DNA from: Deltaproteobacteria bacterium
GTDB taxonomy: Bacteria > UBA10199 > JACPAL01 > JACOUP01
Direction: 5' to 3'
Length of the DNA stretch: 64,000 nucleotides
Assembly: GCA_016177765.1 (NCBI GenBank)
Contig: JACOUP010000008.1
Coordinates: 705,165 to 769,164 of the forward strand
Translations under genes and position numbers: made by a program
Shown: piece by piece, positions 15,105-60,113 of the stretch
Layout of the letters: each line of letters opens with the position of its first letter
Position numbering within the stretch: position 1 is the first letter of the stretch
The notes under the pieces: model-generated
Database searches by the model: none
What the model saw: the letters and a program-made list of their open reading frames with translations, nothing else
Told to the model about the DNA's origin: nothing

Positions 15105-18100
15105 TTAGGGAATAACCTTTGGAAGAAGGCTCCTTTCAGTCACAGGCCATGTCGCTGGGAGTGGTAGTGCGGGATCTCCCCTCCCCTCCATCATCCGATC
15201 AATAACTGCTTCCCTCAACCCCACAGGGGACTCCGAAGGGGGGAGAGGATAGCCACCCCTTTCCAAGAGGGCCTCTAATCCCGGCTGGGCCGTTAGTGAA
15301 TTACCATCTGGGGAATTAAGGGCCGCCGTTGGGATGGAAGGGGTCAAACCGCGAGGAGGCGTCGGCCCCCCTTTATTCGGCACCGGCAGTTCACGGCGCC
15401 CGAGGTTCGCCCCATGACTCATCAAATTTTCACTCACCGTTATTTCCAAGGCAAAACGCCGGACAAAATCATCGGCCTCAGGAACCGTTGCAAAGGGGGT
15501 TCCGATAAAGGCGGGGATTCCGTGAGCCCCACGCACAGGAAGATTACGAACCGTCTCCCGCAACACCGCCGTCCCCTCCTCCGGTGTCCCGTCATAGGCG
15601 ACAAAACCCAAACGGGGGTGCATGGCCAGTTGGGCCGCTGAACCGGCCGACGGCGCATGGAACTGGACCGGTAATCCAAACCTTCGGGCCGCATCGGCAA
15701 ACCACCGGGCCACCAGTCTGTCCCCTTTTTCTGTGGAGGTCAAAATCAGACTATTACCAACAGCCAAGGCCCCGGACAAAAGGGCCGCCAGTGATGGAAG
15801 TGGTGTATGGTCTGAACCGATGACAAGCCCAACCCCCCTTGGACGGTACCTCAACTCTGTCCTTTCACCGGGATTGAAAGAGGTCGGTTGGGGTTCGACA
15901 AGCCGCGCGGCACTAACAGTCATCTGCCGGATCACCGTTGCCGCACCGACGGCCTCTTCTTGGGCATCGAGATAGCCGATCCCATACTCCGTCGCGAGCA
16001 ACGCCACCAGTTCATCCTCATGCCCGGCAACATAGGCGGCCAAACGATTCAGCGAATTTTCTCTTGTCTCCCATCGGAACTCTGCCGCTTGGCTTATCTC
16101 AGCCCTTTCAATGATCCCATTAAAATCAGGGGAAACATCCGTTACAAGGCGTCGCCTTAAACTGTCCGACCTCTGGGCCAGCTCAACTGGGATCATTGTG
16201 TTAGAGGTATAGGACCGCTTTGCCCTTTCTGGGCGCCTCTCCGGACGGACACGCATGAAAGGGGTCAGGGAGTCTGGCCCGCCTGCCTTGGGACCGGTTC
16301 CGGACATCCCAAAACCACCGAACGGTTCAATGCCAACGCGGGCACCAGTAATCCTTCTGTTAATGTAGAGGTTGCCGGCCCTCGCCTCGACCGTGAAACG
16401 CCGGATCTCACGCGGGTTGCGTGAGTAGAGCCCTGCTGTGAGGCCGAACTCTGTATCATTTAACAAACGGAGCGCCTCGTCAAAATCGCTAAACGTCAGG
16501 ACAGAGGCGATAGGGCCAAACATCTCCTCTCGGAGAACAGGATCAGAAGGTGGCGGCTGGACAATAAGCGTGGGGGAAACATAGGCACCGTTCCCCTCCA
16601 TTGGTCCTCCATGACTGTAAAATTCTGCGGTGTCTCTCAGTCTCTCCCGGGCCGGACCTAACTGATTCTCATCGATGGTGCGTCTTGCCCGCTCATCGAT
16701 CAACGGCGGCACCTCTGTTCCGGAGTCAAAGGGGTCTCCAACCTTCAGGCTCCGGAGCGCTGGCACAACCCGTGCCATGAACTCGGCGTAACGGTCCTCG
16801 TGGATAATCACGACTGAACAGGCGGAACATTTCTGCCCGGCATGACCGGTCATCGATTGAACAAAACCCCGCACGGCATCATCCATATCGGCATCCTTGC
16901 TGATGATGATCCCGTTTCGTCCCCCCATCTCGGTCACCGCCCGACGACTGCTCCCAAAGGAAGGGAGGTACGGCTGGGTGACCGCCCTCTCATAAAGACT
17001 CAAACCAACCGCTTTAGAACCGGTAAAGGCGGTTGAGGTCACGCGAGGGTCATTGACCAACAGCTCTCCCAGATCCCCCGCCCCAAAAACCAGATTGACC
17101 AGTCCCGGTGGAAAACCGGCCTCTCTCATTAGTCCCACAAATTCTGCCGCGATGATTGGTGCGGTGGAGCGTTCCGACGGCTTCCAGACAGCCGCATTCC
17201 CGGCGGCTACTTCTTGAAGAGTCATCCCGAGACCGATCGAGGCAAAATTCCATGGGGAGATGACCGCCCCGACCCCCCCTCCTCTGTAAATATCGGTATC
17301 GACCTCCATCAGGAGACGGGCATACCATTCGGCAAAGTCAATCGCCTCGGCGATATCGGCATCCGCCTCACGCCGGATCTTTCCGGAGGTCATCACCAGG
17401 GCGGTCAGTCGATTACGGTCCCGCCTCAGGAGTCTTGCGAAACCGAGAATCACCTCGGCCCGTGTCATGGGGGGTGTTCTGTTCCACCCGGTGGCCGCCG
17501 CGGCCGCCATAGTAATGGCATGATTGACAACCTCAGGGGTTGAATCAGGAACTGAACCGATCTCTTTTTGACGGGCAGAGGCCACCACCCGCTCAAACTC
17601 TTCCCTGACAGAGGCTTGACGAAAATCGAGGAGCGGTTCCGGTCGGAAGGGTCCAAACGGACCGTCGGCAAAGGGTGCTTCACCCAAGGGTGATTCACCC
17701 AAAGGTTGATTGACCCCTTGAGAAGCGGCGGCGAGGGCGGCAACCTCAGTTGGGGAACGGAGCAGGATTTCAGGATCTGGTCTCGAACGCCGGCTCTGGA
17801 CAAAACCTGAGTTTGAGCTGTTTTCCAAAACCCTCCTCACAAAATAGGCCATGCCGGGGATCAGTGGGCCGACCGGGGTATAAAACCGGCCGTTGTATCC
17901 CCTCCCCTCGACCGCGGCTCGCAAGATATCCCCTTCCATCCCGGCCAACATTTCAAAATCGATCGCCTCTTTGGGGACCCCCAACCTTTCAGCAATCGCC
18001 ATCCCCCTGGCAAGGCTCCGAACATTGTGGCTCCCAAGATCGGGACGCAAGAAACGCCAATTGGCAATCAGACGTCTCGCAAGATGCTCCCAGTTGGCAT

Positions 18101-25435: not shown

Positions 25436-25492
25436 GGGTAACACCCCATTGGGTGACTCACCCTTGGGCGAATCGCCCTTGGGTGAACCACC
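25436..25492. repeat. 15-nt palindromic array, 4 units, parB-bactofilin spacer
   Basis: Unit starts at 25436, 25451, 25466 and 25481 keep an exact 15-nt period: GGGTAACACCCC (degenerate), GGGTGACTCACCC, GGGCGAATCGCCC, GGGTGAACCACC. The middle pair shows the T-A to C-G exchange on both arms. The flank CCAAGGAGG forms the bactofilin Shine-Dalgarno. Confidence 0.9.
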
Positions 25493-25493
25493 T

Positions 25494-33000: not shown

Positions 33001-33878
33001 TGCCCCAAGATGACGCTAAAAGAGGCCCCTCTCGGGTGACTGGCTGTTCCCTTTAGGGTCCAGGCGATCAGGAAACGCCCGTTCTTGTAGGCCGCAACCG
33101 GTTCCCGGTTTTCCTGGCAGTCGGTCGGGTTGGTGAGGCCGAACTCCTCGGTAAACCGGTCGTAGAGACAACCGTGGGTGGGGCGTTCGACACTGATCCT
33201 CCTTCGAGAGACCCGTTCTGCAACGCCGTCCCGATCGACCAGCTTGGCGTAGACATCCTGCCTCCCGGCCCGGCCTTCCTCACTCCAAACGATCAGATAG
33301 TGATGCCTGTCCGGATCATAGGCGACATCCGGCTCACTCCCCCCGGACGCCACAGAAACAGGGTTCGTTGCGACCCCCGTCAGGAATAGGGGATGATCCC
33401 AGATATCATTAAAAATCTTGTCACAGGCGAAACAGCGGAAAGAGGGGAAGAGCCGGCGAAAGTCGTGCTGGATCAGCAGTTTGTCATCAATCCCCTCGTA
33501 CGGCTTAAAAACCCCCTTCTTCCAGAGCGAAGAGAGCCTCTTCTCACTCATCCCCCACCGGAGGGAAGCGGCCTTGAGCCATTGGGGATCCAGGGCCTTT
33601 TTCCCTTCCAACGACCCCTTTCTTCGCAAAATCCCGACCTCGGCCTCCTGGACCCCACCCGTGGGTGAACCACCCTTGGGTGAATCACCCTTGGAAACTG
33701 CCGTGCGCTGGCCACTTCCCCCTTTTTGGAAAATCACCGTCGTCGGTTGAAAGGGGGAGGCGAGGGTTACCGTCTTTTGCGGCCCCCGGTTGGAAAAGAA
33801 TCTTTTTTCATCATCAGAACAGCCAAGAAGGGTCAGCCCCAAGAGGATCAGAAAAAAGATTTTGGATAAATTTCTCAT
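30009..33878 (-). CDS. Large lipoprotein with propeller-like, PKD/Ig, FN3 and LamG domains
   Basis: A 1289-aa outer-surface lipoprotein. MRNLSKIFFLILLGLTLLGC gives the lipobox LLGC. After a linker that includes two 15-nt units (KGDSPKGGSP, residues 63-72), residues about 160-640 hold repeated VAYDPDRHHYLIVW / VAYKNGRFLIAWT strands typical of beta propellers; 660-1000 carry three Ig/PKD-like domains (SSDPENGTTDLVYHWEA, SSTDPEGTPLRYIW, ISDPDDPQP); about 1000-1090 is fibronectin-III-like (ETTYFWQVEARKVGGG); about 1095-1280 is a LamG/concanavalin fold (WWRFDEGPGFFMLGDASGHG, GALWFDGVDDRI). It looks like an adhesin or polysaccharide-binding surface protein. It is inserted, with the next gene, between mnmG and mnmE. 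Confidence 0.8.
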   Translation of the reverse strand: MRNLSKIFFLILLGLTLLGCSDDEKRFFSNRGPQKTVTLASPFQPTTVIFQKGGSGQRTAVSKGDSPKGGSPTGGVQEAEVGILRRKGSLEGKKALDPQWLKAASLRWGMSEKRLSSLWKKGVFKPYEGIDDKLLIQHDFRRLFPSFRCFACDKIFNDIWDHPLFLTGVATNPVSVASGGSEPDVAYDPDRHHYLIVWSEEGRAGRQDVYAKLVDRDGVAERVSRRRISVERPTHGCLYDRFTEEFGLTNPTDCQENREPVAAYKNGRFLIAWTLKGTASHPRGASFSVILGQMVEAETLEPVNTNWTEGRLLSKIQLFSNQDGVRPRNDDEIMSWSSHEKPHVIALNNADAFFTVWQTNKDTISCVDSDRWLSRSVYGRVIDFDFGPGRSRNNPNKDLIRIYSDSSNNPDDDSHPEYRDHCVPRADVVTTTNPRVAFNPDINKLLVVFESRVQSVEARLAIAGQVFGLSGSLDPQTFNPWNATPIDSTDSGNSNNPDVVALDDRFVVANDQDKSALMLQTVRYSPAGLVRVGTPALHRVCDGELDGRGLCPEDQISVASRPRLLVSAKNDSEELIVSYEKRSHVGDTAAVIEASALNGNLDFIERPVSLAAPDRTINIHQELAPGENRFVAVWFAKGDGRGDVFSSLAEIVATPVNERPTARIETVPSGITEVRPRERVNLSGGRSSDPENGTTDLVYHWEAISDLPVTFSRNNTMETFFVAPSLECSQGETECEAPIEIRLTVTDLNGLPSEPASVTIRVKQSVLPNQSPIARLQVSTINVSETQPDGSRTRVTLDAGSSTDPEGTPLRYIWTPEDPSQLSNIDDRGSTYSFLVPDVHYQSPQEPEVIHIQLVVSDGELSSTPVEATVTVDFVNRPPVVDLGPDREVNEGEEVILIADISDPDDPQPVPFASWEQVSGPPVSIINFEGGRQIWFTAPSVAMDTPLEFEISVLDEGLLGATDRIQVLVKDRINAPVSQRPADGVVLSPTRVLLQWDEVEEEGVDYTVFFEPVNPPMRPVGGCENIGRTYCVVDNLAPETTYFWQVEARKVGGGRAVSSSFRVVTDNSVAGWWRFDEGPGFFMLGDASGHGNNGALMGEDGPPLWQPGLIGGALWFDGVDDRISLLSHNGFPLAREERGVFLWISWEGPDDDRCTFSSPFWYGSASPGSANAIDIKRDSGALRIISVVDDTALTPVGISRATWNQVGFTYDGTLVRIYINGEEVWSEEKSWDTLWSEGEFGRRFSDCYFRGLIDEAVVYSRSISPEAIRSNYCVVQIQSDAGPLPPLCQ
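33663..33690. repeat. 15-nt palindromic unit, 2 copies, in the large lipoprotein
   Basis: GGGTGAACCACCC and GGGTGAATCACCC joined by TT, preceded by a half unit CACCC. Read on the minus strand as KGDSPKGGSP. Confidence 0.8.
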
Positions 33879-36153: not shown

Positions 36154-37590
36154 TTATTTTCCAATACAGAAACGGGCGAAGATCTCCCCCAGGATCTCGT
36201 CATTGGTGATTTCCCCGGTAATTTCAGAGAGATGGTTGGTCGCGATGAGGAGATCGGCCGCCAGGAATTCCAGCGACATCCGGGCCTGAACAGCCTCTTC
36301 CACCCTTTCCAGGCCGACAAGCGCCTTTTGCAAACAGTCCTTGTGGCGGCTGTTGGTCAGGAGAATCTCTGACGAGGTCATCGAGGGAGAACCGATCAAC
36401 CGCCCATAAAGGAGTCCCTTGAGCTCCTCGATCCCTTCATGATTTTTGGCGGAGATTGATAGGACCGGTGTGAGGGGAGGGGGGACTGGGGAAGGGGAGA
36501 GGTCTTTTTTGTTAAAAATCACCAGCGGTTTTTTATCCGCGATCTTTTCATACAGGGCAACATCTTCGGAACCAAATGGGACACTGGCATCCACAAGAAA
36601 CAAAATCAGATCGGCCGACCGGACCTGTTGCCAACTCCGGCGGATCCCTTCGGATTCGACAGGGTCATTCACGATGGACGGGTCCTGTCTCGGGTTCCGC
36701 CCAGCCGTGCTCACCCGTTCCGCTCGGCTGGGCGCCCGACCCTCGCCACCCGTCCCATGAATCCCCGCTGTATCCACAAGCCGGACCGGCAAGCCTCTCA
36801 GGTTGATCGTCTCTTCAATCAGGTCACGCGTAGTTCCGGGGGTTACATGAACAATCGCCCGATCCTCTTGCAACAAGGCATTGAGCAGGCTTGATTTTCC
36901 GACGTTCGGCCGGCCACAGATGACCACCCGGACCCCCTCCCGAAATTTTCTCCCTTCTTCATAACTGGAGAGAAGGGTCCGGATCCGTCTTTTCAAATCC
37001 TTAAGCCGCCCCTGAATTTCTTCGGAGTAAAGCCCGTGAACATCCTCATCCTCCGGAAAATCGATCATCGCCTCGATCTGGGCCCGGAGGACGCTCATAT
37101 CATTCCGCAATTTACCAACAACCAGGGAAAGGGCCCCGGAGAGTTGACGAGCCGCCAGTTCTGCCGATTTTTCAGTCTCACTTTCAATCAGGTCCGCCAC
37201 TGCCTCGGCCTGGGTCAGATCCAGCTTACCGTTTAAAAACGCCCGTTGGGTGAATTCCCCCGGTTCGGCCGGCCGGGCCCCCTCTTTGAAGAGTACCGCC
37301 AGAATCGATTGGAGAAGAACCGGGCTCCCATGGCAGTGAAATTCAACGACATCCTCACCGGTGTAGGAATGGGGGGCCTTCATCACCACGGCGAGGACTG
37401 TATCTGAAAAAATCTGGCCGGTGACCAGCTGCCGGGGCAGAATTTTGGAAAGTTTTTGGGAAGATTGCCAGACAGTGTCCGCGATAGAAATGGCTTTTTC
37501 CCCGGAAACCCTCAAAATCCCGATCCCGCCAAACCCTGGGGGGGTCGCAATAGCGGCGATGGTGTCGTCGAGGCTATTCTTCAAAGGCAT
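36154..37590 (-). CDS. mnmE: tRNA modification GTPase MnmE with an inserted segment
   Basis: A 478-aa GTPase that pairs with MnmG for U34 modification. The N-terminal domain has the formyl-THF-binding fold ([20 protein letters not shown]); the GTPase has G1 [16 protein letters not shown]2 TPGTTRD, G3 DTAG, G4 NKKD; the C-terminal FCIGK holds the invariant Cys. About 27 extra residues (279-305, Gly/Arg-rich) follow the DTAG motif; they are encoded by the 80-bp element found also in the Rsm22-type gene. This is the switch II region, so the insert must be tolerated by a mobile loop. Confidence 0.95.
36676..36755. mobile_element. 80-bp palindromic element, copy 1 (inside mnmE)
   Basis: The element has terminal inverted repeats GGACGGGT...ACCCGTCC and, inside, a perfect 10-bp stem CGCCCAGCCG/CGGCTGGGCG on the coding strand. 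It differs from copy 2 (50448-50527) by a single base. It adds 80 bp, plus one neighbouring base to keep the frame, to the mnmE GTPase domain. No protein is encoded by it in its own right; its origin is unknown. Confidence 0.85.
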
Positions 37591-49216: not shown

Positions 49217-50176
49217 ATGGCTAACCCACCTGAAATATTTAGGATTTCTGCCTCCGAGGCCGATCAAAGACTGGACCGGTACCTTGTCCAGAAACTCTCC
49301 CTTTCCAGAAAAAGGGTCAAGGCGCTCCTGGACCGTGGGAAGATTTTTATCAACGGTCACAAGGTGGTGATCGCCTCCTGGGAGGTCAATCAGGGTGATA
49401 AACTTCAGGTTTTTTCAGAAAGGTCCGAGGAAGATCCTTCCCAGACCAAGCCCCAATTTTTGAAGGTCGCTTATGAGGACTCGGACCTTCTCATTGTGGA
49501 AAAAGATGCCGGGATCCCTTGTGAAAAATCGCCGGTTGCCTGGCGCCCCTCCATGGTGGCGATGGTCAATCAGTATTTAAAAAAGACCCACCCCCATCTT
49601 CCGGCCCACTATGTCGGACTGGTTCATCGTCTGGATACCGACACCTCCGGACTTCTTATTTATACCAAGACCAAAGAGGCGAACAAGATTACGGAGCAGT
49701 TTAAAAAACGAACGGTGGTGAGAAAATATTTGGCCCTTGTGGAGGGGAGGGTAGAGGGGGAGAAAAAAGTTTTGGAGGGGTACCTCGCTCAGGCCAATCT
49801 TCCCGGTGGTAAAAAGATAAAACTGGTTCCGAAGGGAAAGGGGAAGAGGGCGGTCACCACCTATACCGTTTTAGAGCGTTACGGGAAGGCAACACTTTTG
49901 GAGATTTCGATCAAGACCGGTCGGACCCATCAGATTCGTGTCCAGTTGGCAGCAATCCGGCATCCGATCCTGGGGGACCGGATCTACGGATCGACCGCTT
50001 CTCGTGATGGGTCGTCTTTCAAGCGTCAGGCGCTCCATGCCAACACCCTCTGTTTCCGTCATCCGGTGACCGGCAAAAAAATAGAGTTAATTTCTGAACC
50101 TCCCCGTGATTTTCGACGGCTTATCGATCGCCTGCGCGAAGGGTGGTCCACCCAAGGGCGATTCGCCCAGGGGTGA
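49217..50176 (+). CDS. rluD: RluD-family ribosomal large subunit pseudouridine synthase
   Basis: A 319-aa pseudouridine synthase. Residues 12-80 are an S4 RNA-binding domain (QRLDRYLVQKLSLSRKRVKALL); the catalytic Asp is in HRLDTDTSGLLIYTKT; TGRTHQIRVQLAAIRHPILGD is the second signature. The specific uridine cannot be told. The C-terminal 12 residues (GWSTQGRFAQG) come from the 15-nt array; the first two units carry TGG and CGA where the consensus has TGA, and the third unit's TGA is the stop codon. Confidence 0.92.
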   Translation: MANPPEIFRISASEADQRLDRYLVQKLSLSRKRVKALLDRGKIFINGHKVVIASWEVNQGDKLQVFSERSEEDPSQTKPQFLKVAYEDSDLLIVEKDAGIPCEKSPVAWRPSMVAMVNQYLKKTHPHLPAHYVGLVHRLDTDTSGLLIYTKTKEANKITEQFKKRTVVRKYLALVEGRVEGEKKVLEGYLAQANLPGGKKIKLVPKGKGKRAVTTYTVLERYGKATLLEISIKTGRTHQIRVQLAAIRHPILGDRIYGSTASRDGSSFKRQALHANTLCFRHPVTGKKIELISEPPRDFRRLIDRLREGWSTQGRFAQG

Positions 50177-50226
50177 TTCACCCAAGGGTGAGCCACACAA
50201 TGGTGTGTCACCCAGGGGCGCTAGCT
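50141..50226. repeat. 15-nt palindromic array, 6 units, at convergent gene ends
   Basis: Unit starts at 50141, 50156, 50171, 50186, 50201 and 50216 are exactly 15 nt apart: GGGTGGTCCACCC, GGGCGATTCGCCC, GGGTGATTCACCC, GGGTGAGCCACAC, TGGTGTGTCACCC and a partial GGGCGC. The first two show compensated stem changes. The array gives the stop codon of rluD and holds the stop of the convergent Rsm22-type gene. Confidence 0.92.
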
Positions 50227-51432
50227 GATAATTTTTAGGGGTGTCTCTTTCTCGACCCTTTTGATCGCCTCCATCTCAACAATATAACCCCTTTTAAGAC
50301 GATCGAATGGCGTATTCATTGGAGAACGATCGCGATCAAGTCTTTCGGTGTGGAGGAGCTGACCGGATTTTGCCGACTCCTCCCCGCACAAGACAACCTC
50401 CGATTTGCCGTTGGATCTCATCAGCGAAGAAACAACACGCCAACTTGGGACGGGTCCTGTCTCGGGTTCCGCCCAGCCGTGCTCACCCGTTCCGCTCGGC
50501 CGGGCGCCCGACCCTCGCCACCCGTCCCTGTCTGATCCTGCTAGAATCAAATACGAGCATTTTAAATAATCCTTTCGAATGCCAATCCTCTGGTCAAACT
50601 CCTCGATCATCTCTGTCGGTTCCCATTCAATGTAGGTATGGCACCAATCGCGCCGATTTTCTTTGAGCATCGGGCAGAGCCGCTGGTGTGTGCAGGGGGC
50701 AATGGTTATCGGGATATTTTGAGGGTTCTCACTACTGAGGAGGGCATCGTGGAGTTCCATCAATTCGAGTGTTGTCTTTCGGAGGGCCGGTTCTACAATA
50801 AGAATCTTTCCTTGGGGGGTGAGGTGATGATTGAGGAGCCGGATCAGCATGTTCCGGCGTTTCTCCGGATGGAATATCTCATTCAAGGTATTGACCATCA
50901 AGATCAAGTCATACCGGTCGTGGTGCAGAAAAGCGGGCAGGGGTTCTCTTTCGAGATCGGTTTTGACACTACGGAACTTGGAGGGGAGGGGAAAATGGGG
51001 TGAAAGTTTTTGGTGAAGGAGCCGTGCCTCTTCCAAAATGGCGCTATTCTGATCGACCGCGGTATAGTGAATGGAGGCTTTTGTAAAAAACAGAAGACTC
51101 CCTAGAAGCCCGGTGCCCGGCCCGCTCCCAAGGTCCAAAATTTTGATCGGTTCTTTTGTGTCTGGCCAACTGTCGGCTGGGGCCTGACGAAGGAGCGGCG
51201 GGATCTTGAGGGCGTTCACCAAAAGAAAATAGGCGATGTAGCCGGAACGCAGTTCTTTCTGATTAAAATAGTTTTTGGTGAGCGATCCCCTGTCGCTGGT
51301 GAACGACAGGCTGAGCTCAGCGACCCCTTTTTCAAAAAAACCGTAAGGAAAAGAGGGAGGCCTCTTCCCCTTGGCCGGGAAGTAGTAGCGTTCGATCAGA
51401 AAATCTTGAATGATTTTGTCGAGAGAGACCAT
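50221..51432 (-). CDS. Rsm22-family methyltransferase-like protein
   Basis: A 403-aa protein of the Rsm22/METTL17 family, which assists small-subunit assembly or methylates its rRNA. It has the SAM motif ILDLGSGPGTGLLGSLLFF (residues about 95-115), YDLILMVNTLNEI, and the C-terminal signature APCTHQRLCPML...DWCH with RKDYLKCSYLIL, whose cysteines bind iron-sulfur in relatives. ATG 51432 is used; a TTG at 51474 in frame is possible. Residues about 302-328 (Gly/Pro-rich) are encoded by the 80-bp element. Its stop lies in the 15-nt array. Confidence 0.85.
   Translation of the reverse strand: MVSLDKIIQDFLIERYYFPAKGKRPPSFPYGFFEKGVAELSLSFTSDRGSLTKNYFNQKELRSGYIAYFLLVNALKIPPLLRQAPADSWPDTKEPIKILDLGSGPGTGLLGSLLFFTKASIHYTAVDQNSAILEEARLLHQKLSPHFPLPSKFRSVKTDLEREPLPAFLHHDRYDLILMVNTLNEIFHPEKRRNMLIRLLNHHLTPQGKILIVEPALRKTTLELMELHDALLSSENPQNIPITIAPCTHQRLCPMLKENRRDWCHTYIEWEPTEMIEEFDQRIGIRKDYLKCSYLILAGSDRDGWRGSGARPSGTGEHGWAEPETGPVPSWRVVSSLMRSNGKSEVVLCGEESAKSGQLLHTERLDRDRSPMNTPFDRLKRGYIVEMEAIKRVEKETPLKIIS
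50448..50527. mobile_element. 80-bp palindromic element, copy 2 (inside Rsm22-type gene)
   Basis: This copy is identical to 36676-36755 except for one base, which turns a stem A-U pair into a G-U on the coding strand. Ends are GGACGGGT and ACCCGTCC. It is translated in a different frame from the mnmE copy, so the protein sequence is not what is conserved. Confidence 0.85.
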
Positions 51433-51491
51433 TTTTAGAAAGAGTTTATTTTTGACATTATCGGCCCTCACCAATAGCTATAGCACACTTT

Positions 51492-58280: not shown

Positions 58281-60113
58281 GTGAGTCGTTTCCATTGGGC
58301 GAATCGCCCTTGGGTGAAGCACCCTGGGTCGGCCGTCGCCGCCGCTTTTCTCTTTTGCTCCCCGGCGCCGCTCTTCGCGGTTGATTTTTCCGCCCACGGC
58401 TATTACCGGAACCGGACCGTTACCTTTCACGACCTGGATACCCAACAACCCAATAGTGGTGTCGCTCAACCCGGCTTAGGGGATAAACCATGCAAACCGG
58501 ATGCCTCACAGGCTGGTCAACCGGGGGACAACGACTGTTTCGGCAGTATCCTCTTCAACCAACATCGGCTTCGTGTGGAACCGATGCTCAAGGTCAATGA
58601 CAACATCTCCTTTCATATGCAGATGGATATTGTCGATAATCTCATCTTTGGGACGGAGAAGACCAAACAGCTCGATTTTGTCTCTCCGATTGTCGGGACC
58701 GTCCAACTCCCCGGTTCCGGAGGGGCCTTGGGGGTCGTGGGGGGGGAGGCGGGGGAGAACAAGGTTCTTCATATCCGCAGGGCCTGGGTTAATCTCTTGA
58801 CCCCGATGGGGGTTTTTCGTTTTGGACGTCAGCCCTCCCATTGGGGGCTTGGGATCTTTCAGAATGATGGCAACGGGATTGAGGATGACTTTGGCGATAC
58901 CTTTGACCGGATCCTTTATCTGGCCGCCCTGGATACCGAAAAGGCGGGGACGTTCAGTTTTGGCACAGTGGCTGATATCACCTTTGCCAATCAGCGAGAT
59001 CCGAGGATCAGCGGTCTTGGGGGGGCGATCCGTGGGGTGACAGAGGATATGCGGCAGTTCGCCGGGATCCTCATGTATGAAAAAGAGGGGGAAAACGCCG
59101 CCTTTTCACTCGGGACCTTTTCCGGGATCCGCTATCGCAACGGGAAGGAAGGGGATACGACGACAACGGCGCGTCGGGTCCTGGATGCCGACAACAACGG
59201 GATCCCCGATCTGGATGCGAGCGGGAATTCCCAGCTGACCGATCCCCTCCCGGCAGGTCATGACGGGAACACCTTTCTCTATTTTGCCGATATCTACACC
59301 AAGCTAAAATTCTTGAGGCACTACAAGATCCAGCTGGAGTACGTTTACCTGGGTGGCAAGCTCTCCACAGGCCTCGCGATTGATGCCGTTCCCTTTAATA
59401 ATCTTCCGGCCAATGCCCTCGGGCCGTATGAACTTGCGGATCAAAACAAATTTCAGGTCCATATGGCGGCGATGGAGGCGGAGGCGAATTACGATTTTGG
59501 CGAATTCCTGCTCCAGAGTGGTTTCGCCTCAGGCGATTCAGACCCGCTCTCCAGCAAGATCACCCAGTTTGGTTTTAGACCGGACTATCAGTTGGGGCTG
59601 TTGATGTTTCATGTCCCCTTGGGGCGTTCGCCATCCATCACCCAGGCCAACGGCAACGGCCAGGGGAGCCGCCTGCTGGTGGGGGGAGTCCCGGTGACCG
59701 GCAATTTCATCAATAATACCATTTACACCGCCCTGGGTTACAAACATCACCTGAATATCCAGAGCCTGATCCCCAAGAGCCGGGATGTGAAGGCCGGTGT
59801 CAAGGTTATTACTGGCTGGACCCACCAGTCCAACTTTAACATCGATTTTTCCGAAATTACCGGGATTCAGGGGCTCCCCAGGGTGACCAACAGCAAGCGG
59901 TGGTATGGGATTGAAGTAGATTCGAGCCTTGAGGGACGGTTCTTTGATTTCCTTCTGGCCCGGCTGGATACCGGTTTTCTCCTCCCCGGTTCGGCCTATG
60001 ATGTCGATGTGAACGTCTTTGATCCCGGCAACCTCTCCGCCGTCAACACCATCCCGTTTGATGGGGCCAACTGGGCCTTCGGTCTTCGCGGAACCATCGC
60101 TGTCGAATTCTAG
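58281..60113 (+). CDS. Outer-membrane beta-barrel protein (porin-like)
   Basis: A 610-aa protein starting at GTG 58281 (RBS AAGGAAGG) with a signal peptide (SAVAAAFLFCSPAPLFA). The mature part has recurring amphipathic strands and loops (FSAHGYYRNRTVTFHDL, LRVEPMLKVNDNISFHMQMDIVDN, MGVFRFGRQPSHWGLGI) and ends in a typical barrel strand WAFGLRGTIAVEF with terminal Phe. This suggests a porin or export channel of the deltaproteobacterial type; substrate unknown. Residues 5-15 (ANRPWVKHP) come from two 15-nt units placed before the hydrophobic core of the signal. Confidence 0.75.
   Translation: MSRFHWANRPWVKHPGSAVAAAFLFCSPAPLFAVDFSAHGYYRNRTVTFHDLDTQQPNSGVAQPGLGDKPCKPDASQAGQPGDNDCFGSILFNQHRLRVEPMLKVNDNISFHMQMDIVDNLIFGTEKTKQLDFVSPIVGTVQLPGSGGALGVVGGEAGENKVLHIRRAWVNLLTPMGVFRFGRQPSHWGLGIFQNDGNGIEDDFGDTFDRILYLAALDTEKAGTFSFGTVADITFANQRDPRISGLGGAIRGVTEDMRQFAGILMYEKEGENAAFSLGTFSGIRYRNGKEGDTTTTARRVLDADNNGIPDLDASGNSQLTDPLPAGHDGNTFLYFADIYTKLKFLRHYKIQLEYVYLGGKLSTGLAIDAVPFNNLPANALGPYELADQNKFQVHMAAMEAEANYDFGEFLLQSGFASGDSDPLSSKITQFGFRPDYQLGLLMFHVPLGRSPSITQANGNGQGSRLLVGGVPVTGNFINNTIYTALGYKHHLNIQSLIPKSRDVKAGVKVITGWTHQSNFNIDFSEITGIQGLPRVTNSKRWYGIEVDSSLEGRFFDFLLARLDTGFLLPGSAYDVDVNVFDPGNLSAVNTIPFDGANWAFGLRGTIAVEF
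58297..58324. repeat. 15-nt palindromic unit, 2 copies, in a signal peptide N-region
   Basis: GGGCGAATCGCCC and GGGTGAAGCACCC joined by TT. Read as WANRPWVKHP. Confidence 0.85.

Follow-up and report, generated by a model that had tools for sequence, protein, structure and literature searches.

The window analysed here is a stretch of 64,000 nucleotides in which two genes, both on the minus strand, each carry in frame an 80-bp copy of one hairpin element. Copy 1 (36676..36755, + strand; 63.6 bits with covariance model R1) lies in mnmE (trmE), which encodes a tRNA-modification GTPase (ORF 36157..37590, - strand; Pfam MnmE_helical 2e-57, TrmE_N 1.5e-40). It is flanked by the GTPase segment VDTAGIH and by VNDPVE, and alignments to PDB MnmE structures break exactly here. 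Copy 2 (50448..50527, + strand; R1 59.9 bits, E 9.9e-10) lies in the gene of an Rsm22-type methyltransferase (ORF 50224..51474, - strand; Pfam PF09243, E 2.2e-14). A repeat search of the window aligned the copies at 99% identity, the sole mismatch being T at 36729 in mnmE against C at 50501 in the Rsm22-type gene. As the preliminary description of this DNA had stated, the change yields a G-U stem pair: on the minus strand, the mnmE copy has A-U where the Rsm22 copy has G.U (read on the plus strand, the difference is A.C). Its further claims, that the two copies are translated in different frames and that structure is conserved rather than peptide, also stand, with different peptides encoded in the two hosts, four different frames among 12 copies genome-wide, and compensatory changes across lineages.

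In copy 2, the 5′ arm of the terminal stem (50448..50455, + strand) is a copy-specific GGA followed by conserved CGGGT, and pairs with the 3′ arm (50520..50527, + strand), conserved ACCCG followed by copy-specific TCC. Adjoining the 5′ arm, CCTGTC (50456..50461, + strand) comprises a conserved unpaired CCT, then G and the position of a Y.Y mismatch, and is nearly invariant in alignments A1 and A2; CCGTGCTC (50478..50485, + strand), at the base of the apical hairpin, occupies invariant columns of A2. The fold of the element, 70-88 nt long in most lineages, runs from a terminal stem ending in CGGGT/ACCCG through the unpaired CCT, the Y.Y mismatch and a long arm to an apical-hairpin base, CCGTGC/GCGCGG, with a T.G mismatch. 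Four motifs are almost invariant (GGGTCCTGYC, CCGTGCTC, GCGCG and GYCACCC). The long arm has a lineage-specific sequence with its pairing retained, and the outer base pairs of the terminal stem vary among copies with complementarity kept. The hairpin is more stable than dinucleotide shuffles, with z of -3.6 to -5.9 as RNA and -2.8 to -3.0 as DNA.

Covariation was assessed on alignment A2, 38 diverse copies aligned with MAFFT without structure. With the structure drawn on it by hand, which biases the share of paired cells upward and affects double changes less, standard pairs fill 89.1% of pair cells against 74.4 ± 0.8% after shuffling, and 165 cells are doubly compensated, with both partners changed, the shuffles giving 51.4 ± 6.6. 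None of 500 shuffles reached the observed pairing or double-change count, and sliding the partners by 1-3 columns dropped pairing to 38-48%. One position pair is almost never Watson-Crick, T.C and C.T being swapped in 36 of the 38 sequences (A.G for G.A on the other strand). Together with the conserved CCT bulge and the T.G mismatch, this swap suggests that some protein reads a folded single strand.

The source genome of the window (G000, 1.92 Mb) contains 12 clear copies by BLAST, in both orientations, and 13 by the covariance model, the extra one being weak and inside priA. Ten copies are full-length with cores 97-100% identical, two others (L011, L012) have a short internal insert, and the flanks are unrelated to each other; this dispersal disposes of the possibility that there are just two copies with flanking homology. 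Nearly all 13 places are within protein genes whose frame is unbroken, and one copy (L009) lies outside any long ORF. Four of 12 hosts are RNA-related (the rsm22-type gene, mnmE, an rluD-type pseudouridine synthase and truA), and the link to RNA genes, first put forward as perhaps chance, is probably just that. The remaining hosts are hisF, folC (Mur-ligase type), a squalene-hopene cyclase, an FAD-linked oxidase, a NUDIX hydrolase, a 370-aa ORF without a name, and two genes that we take, from reading their sequence without a database match, to be gamma-glutamyltranspeptidase-like and priA. Alignments to solved structures break at the element, where MnmE is longer by a net 26-27 residues, HisF by 29 and TruA by 24, sizes compatible with 78-81 nt given natural loop variation. 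No replication-strand bias was seen among the G000 copies in a hand count from dnaA (4 with the fork, 6 against).

In hisF, both genera of the family have copies at the same place, G000 (L010) and G001 (L028, L120). The G001 hisF copy has a loop, TCATAAATT, that it has in common with another G001 copy and that differs from its G000 counterpart, a pattern that reflects either gene conversion or repeated insertion at one site. Since this copy matches the G001 loop and not that of G000, sequence-identical copies could partly reflect gene conversion.

The window also holds a second, very short palindromic family, GGGTGATTCACCC and its palindrome-keeping variants, often in tandem with a period of 15, with 49 matches against 3.2 expected (832-859, 17673-17716, 25451-25493, 29985, 33663-33690, 44340, 44652, 50141-50219, 54473 and 58297-58324). 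It is intergenic and is also found in frame in pgk and at two places in gyrB, encoding GDSPKG or GDSPKP. Elsewhere in G000, L011 (C8:1097864-1097956) and L012 (544741-544833) have a GGGTGATTCACCC unit inside the hairpin element, making them 93 instead of 78 nt long and still in frame; a member of the one family of palindromes has apparently inserted into the other there.

Three of 59 relatives carry the hairpin element: G001, G003 (98% complete, 23 copies) and G019, in which the copies are merely 71% identical. The matches listed in a degenerate-pattern search of GTDB genomes include Omnitrophota, Saccharibacteria, Krumholzibacteriota, Latescibacterota, Legionellaceae and other Gammaproteobacteria, 'Deltaproteobacteria', Myxococcales, Nitrospirae, Chitinivibrionia and an Acidobacteria bin (taxa as labelled in the records), and about ten bacterial phyla have members in which the predicted hairpin fold is kept. 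About a dozen further matches (Streptomyces, Sphingomonas and similar), in which the fold is missing, were rejected as chance. The covariance model detected copies, 1 to 104 each, in 36 of 36 other genomes, which had been picked because they carry a copy; within one Saccharibacteria genus the element is patchy, occurring in 66 of 174 genomes (E ≤ 1e-6). Nearly all hosts are metagenome assemblies. No Rfam family was found at the element in a gathering scan of the window or, at E ≤ 1, in 7 copy-bearing loci. Phages and plasmids were rejected as vehicles, with no match to either by blastn and a single pattern match among 2.9 million viral contigs. We found no paper describing the family in a search with subscription papers and preprints outside its scope, so this absence is weak evidence.

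Copies may be paired or nested. All those retrieved from G071, a genome with about 100, stand head to head in doublets with a spacing of ~50 bp; head-to-head pairs also occur at L084, L086, L088 and L097, with none in G000, and one copy lies within another at L064, L100 and L114. In the Legionellaceae C5 bin (L077, L090, L092, L115, L119), the element is embedded in a longer repeat, bounded by GAATTCCCGC...GCGGGAAT and similar to CGTC-type REPs. In the gammaproteobacterial genome MAG_CA28 (about 100 copies; L056, L057, L058, L068, L084, L097), T-runs follow the copies, with flanks aaaatgactg...cgtttttt, and to judge from these flanks the copies may serve there as transcription terminators.

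Insertion polymorphism between sister species shows that the element has moved. Three Saccharibacteria genomes (G148, G242, G247) are mostly 90-96% identical around shared copies, and a fourth (G169) is more distant. At a site in a gene that we read from its protein sequence as topA, G242 and G247 are filled and G148 and G169 empty, with 126 against 30 nt between anchors (+96 nt); at a site in what we likewise read as tgt, G148 and G247 are filled and G242 empty, with 120 against 45 nt (+75 nt). The LeuRS gene of G081 is 81 nt longer at its copy than those of G154 and G208, and the G062 IleRS carries two copies, both within loops missing from most of about 30 congeners. Net insertion sizes thus vary, from 75, 81 and 96 nt in DNA to 24-29 codons in protein alignments. 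The mobility proposed in the preliminary description, with gene conversion as its alternative, is supported by these filled and empty sites and by the 12-13 dispersed copies of G000. The comparison of flanks for a target duplication, which it had also suggested, gave no consistent duplication: none is constant at the filled and empty sites, where the flanks are hypervariable and the ends hard to place, and CTCG, present in a few Omnitrophota copies, is not general. The IleRS loops of Saccharibacteria (L264-L293; residues 217-258 and 790-843 of P0001) contain many other repetitive inserts in different species, for example RDDGSGRSEEPRNDGRDEASR, which probably represent further in-frame repeat families.

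What moves the element was sought among its neighbours. Clustering of neighbouring genes at about 156 loci found only housekeeping genes, with no gene recurring beside the copies and no transposase, and the ORFs between close copies are host genes with no travelling gene among them. The preliminary description had suggested looking for a transposase or reverse transcriptase that acts in trans; movement turns out to require no Y1 transposase and no reverse transcriptase. Reverse transcriptase was rejected as the mover, since RVT_1 is missing from G000 and G003 and 14 of 30 element-bearing genomes are without a reverse transcriptase. The element could instead belong to the REP type and owe its movement to a Y1 tyrosine (RAYT/IS200-like) transposase, either still present or lost recently, a reading in keeping with the hairpin and its conserved mismatches, the head-to-head doublets of G071, the three Y1_Tnp genes of G000 and the intragenic copies, as reported for GTAG/CGTC REPs (PMC3733652). 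We nevertheless think it unlikely. G003 has no Y1_Tnp despite its near-complete assembly and many copies; Y1_Tnp occurs in just 8 of the 174 genomes of the Saccharibacteria genus, against 66 for the element; no element lies near any of 15 Y1_Tnp loci; and the element lacks the terminal GTAG/CGTC tag and measures 70-88 nt against 20-40.

The ends of the copies bear on the chemistry of insertion. Complementary pairing extends outside GGGT/ACCC for a mean of 4.45 bp in G000 and 4.30 bp in G003, against 1.86 ± 0.44 and 1.46 ± 0.28 with flanks re-paired inside each genome, although the cores of the copies are nearly identical. This excess reflects either a preference for short-palindrome targets or the copying of ends from arm to arm during movement. 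Because removing just the 74-nt core would shift the frame in G000, at least part of the outer complementary bases should belong to the insert, which would tell against the otherwise attractive idea of a pre-existing 6-bp palindromic target as their sole source. A more speculative account, to which we give rather little credence, is that excision of the folded single strand takes a few flanking bases along, and that the other arm receives a copy of the free end before the element inserts, giving each copy its own perfectly complementary outermost base pairs. In this account a widespread, unrecognised enzyme would read the conserved mismatches, and the element would have been reshaping conserved proteins in different bacterial phyla.

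In the Saccharibacteria genus, copies mostly measure 70, 73, 76, 79, 82, 85 or 88 nt, and a single class modulo three accounts for 54 of 79 distinct genome-length pairs. The classes of other lineages stand at 21:18:12 (18/51), with none dominant. The three-step lengths of the genus show selection on the reading frame after insertion. The 78-nt copies of G003 lie in frame, as do nearly all copies of G148, G247, G242, G169 and G145. Selection for open frames within the element was rejected, the number of open frames being what base composition gives. By hand count, the strand reading GGGTCCTG... is opposite to the host ORF in 37 cases and the same in 15 (binomial p 0.003). The likeliest cause is that the peptides of the opposite strand are hydrophilic and tolerated, but as copies are not independent, this is only suggestive. 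The lengths are also evidence against action at the RNA level, whereby the insert would be spliced out or bypassed by the ribosome to give a protein without it. The strong RNA fold, the conserved motifs and the position inside essential genes would suit such removal, but the inserts are stop-free in the host frame, which would be needless if they were removed, they occur in both orientations to the gene, and other lineages have copies outside genes; we regard this reading as improbable. Least probable is a role as a functional structured RNA or transcription terminator, scattered and then retained for its regulatory effect, since structural conservation across phyla and the T-runs after the G061 copies (aaaatgactg GGG...CCC cgttttttt) have to be set against copies in both orientations and in coding regions, patchiness among congeners, sites that differ between sister species and the lack of an Rfam relative.

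We believe with reasonable confidence that the element, short at about 70-88 bp, is mobile without being autonomous, that what it conserves is a folded hairpin, and that an enzyme acting in trans would move it. It would move as a folded single strand, an intermediate to which its structure points, recognised by an enzyme encoded by the host or by an element. Spread within each genome would start from few founders, with insertion at many sites in either orientation, and intragenic copies would survive only in places where length and frame leave the protein readable. Each survivor would then be an insert of 24-32 residues, probably harmless and in a surface loop.

For the study of uncultured bacteria this carries a caution, since inserts of 24-32 residues in their proteins may stem from a DNA parasite and not from adaptation. 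The element spans tiny Saccharibacteria genomes and other phyla, its fold kept while the arm sequence drifts completely. A searchable model, pairs of filled and empty sites, and many host proteins (IleRS, LeuRS, MnmE, TruA, HisF, Tgt, TopA) are now at hand, and make the mode of movement of such repeats and their effects on proteins testable.

Integron attC sites, imperfect hairpins with conserved mismatches, are recognised by fold rather than by sequence. The element is likewise an imperfect hairpin in which mismatches and structure are conserved over sequence, but it has no R/L box core motifs and is not found in cassette arrays. Like bacterial MITEs (Correia, NEMIS, Nezha and others), it is non-autonomous, palindromic and dispersed; unlike them, it conserves secondary structure and not terminal repeat sequence. 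No parental insertion sequence was seen among the neighbours of about 156 loci, nor a constant target duplication at the filled and empty sites. To our knowledge, no mover has been established for Rickettsia palindromic elements (RPEs). These palindromic repeats lie in frame within unrelated protein-coding genes (PMC3733652 and references there), and they are treated with intragenic REPs, whose targets include tRNA pseudouridine synthase genes, in 'GTAG- and CGTC-tagged palindromic DNA repeats in prokaryotes' (PMC3733652). REPs resemble the element in being short multi-copy hairpins with head-to-head doublets (as in G071) and some intragenic copies, tRNA pseudouridine synthase genes included, but are 20-40 bp long with a stem of 5-13 bp and end in an unpaired GTAG or CGTC, whereas the terminal bases of the element vary and are complementary to its other end; nor does the element share the RAYT (Y1_Tnp) association of GTAG REP families. 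With RPEs it shares its place in frame within conserved ORFs, but it has its own motifs and a spread over about ten phyla, RPEs being described from Rickettsia. The best reading is that it behaves like REP and RPE repeats yet probably forms a separate family, taking in-frame palindromic insertion, known mainly from Rickettsia and some REPs, to a far wider range of bacteria.
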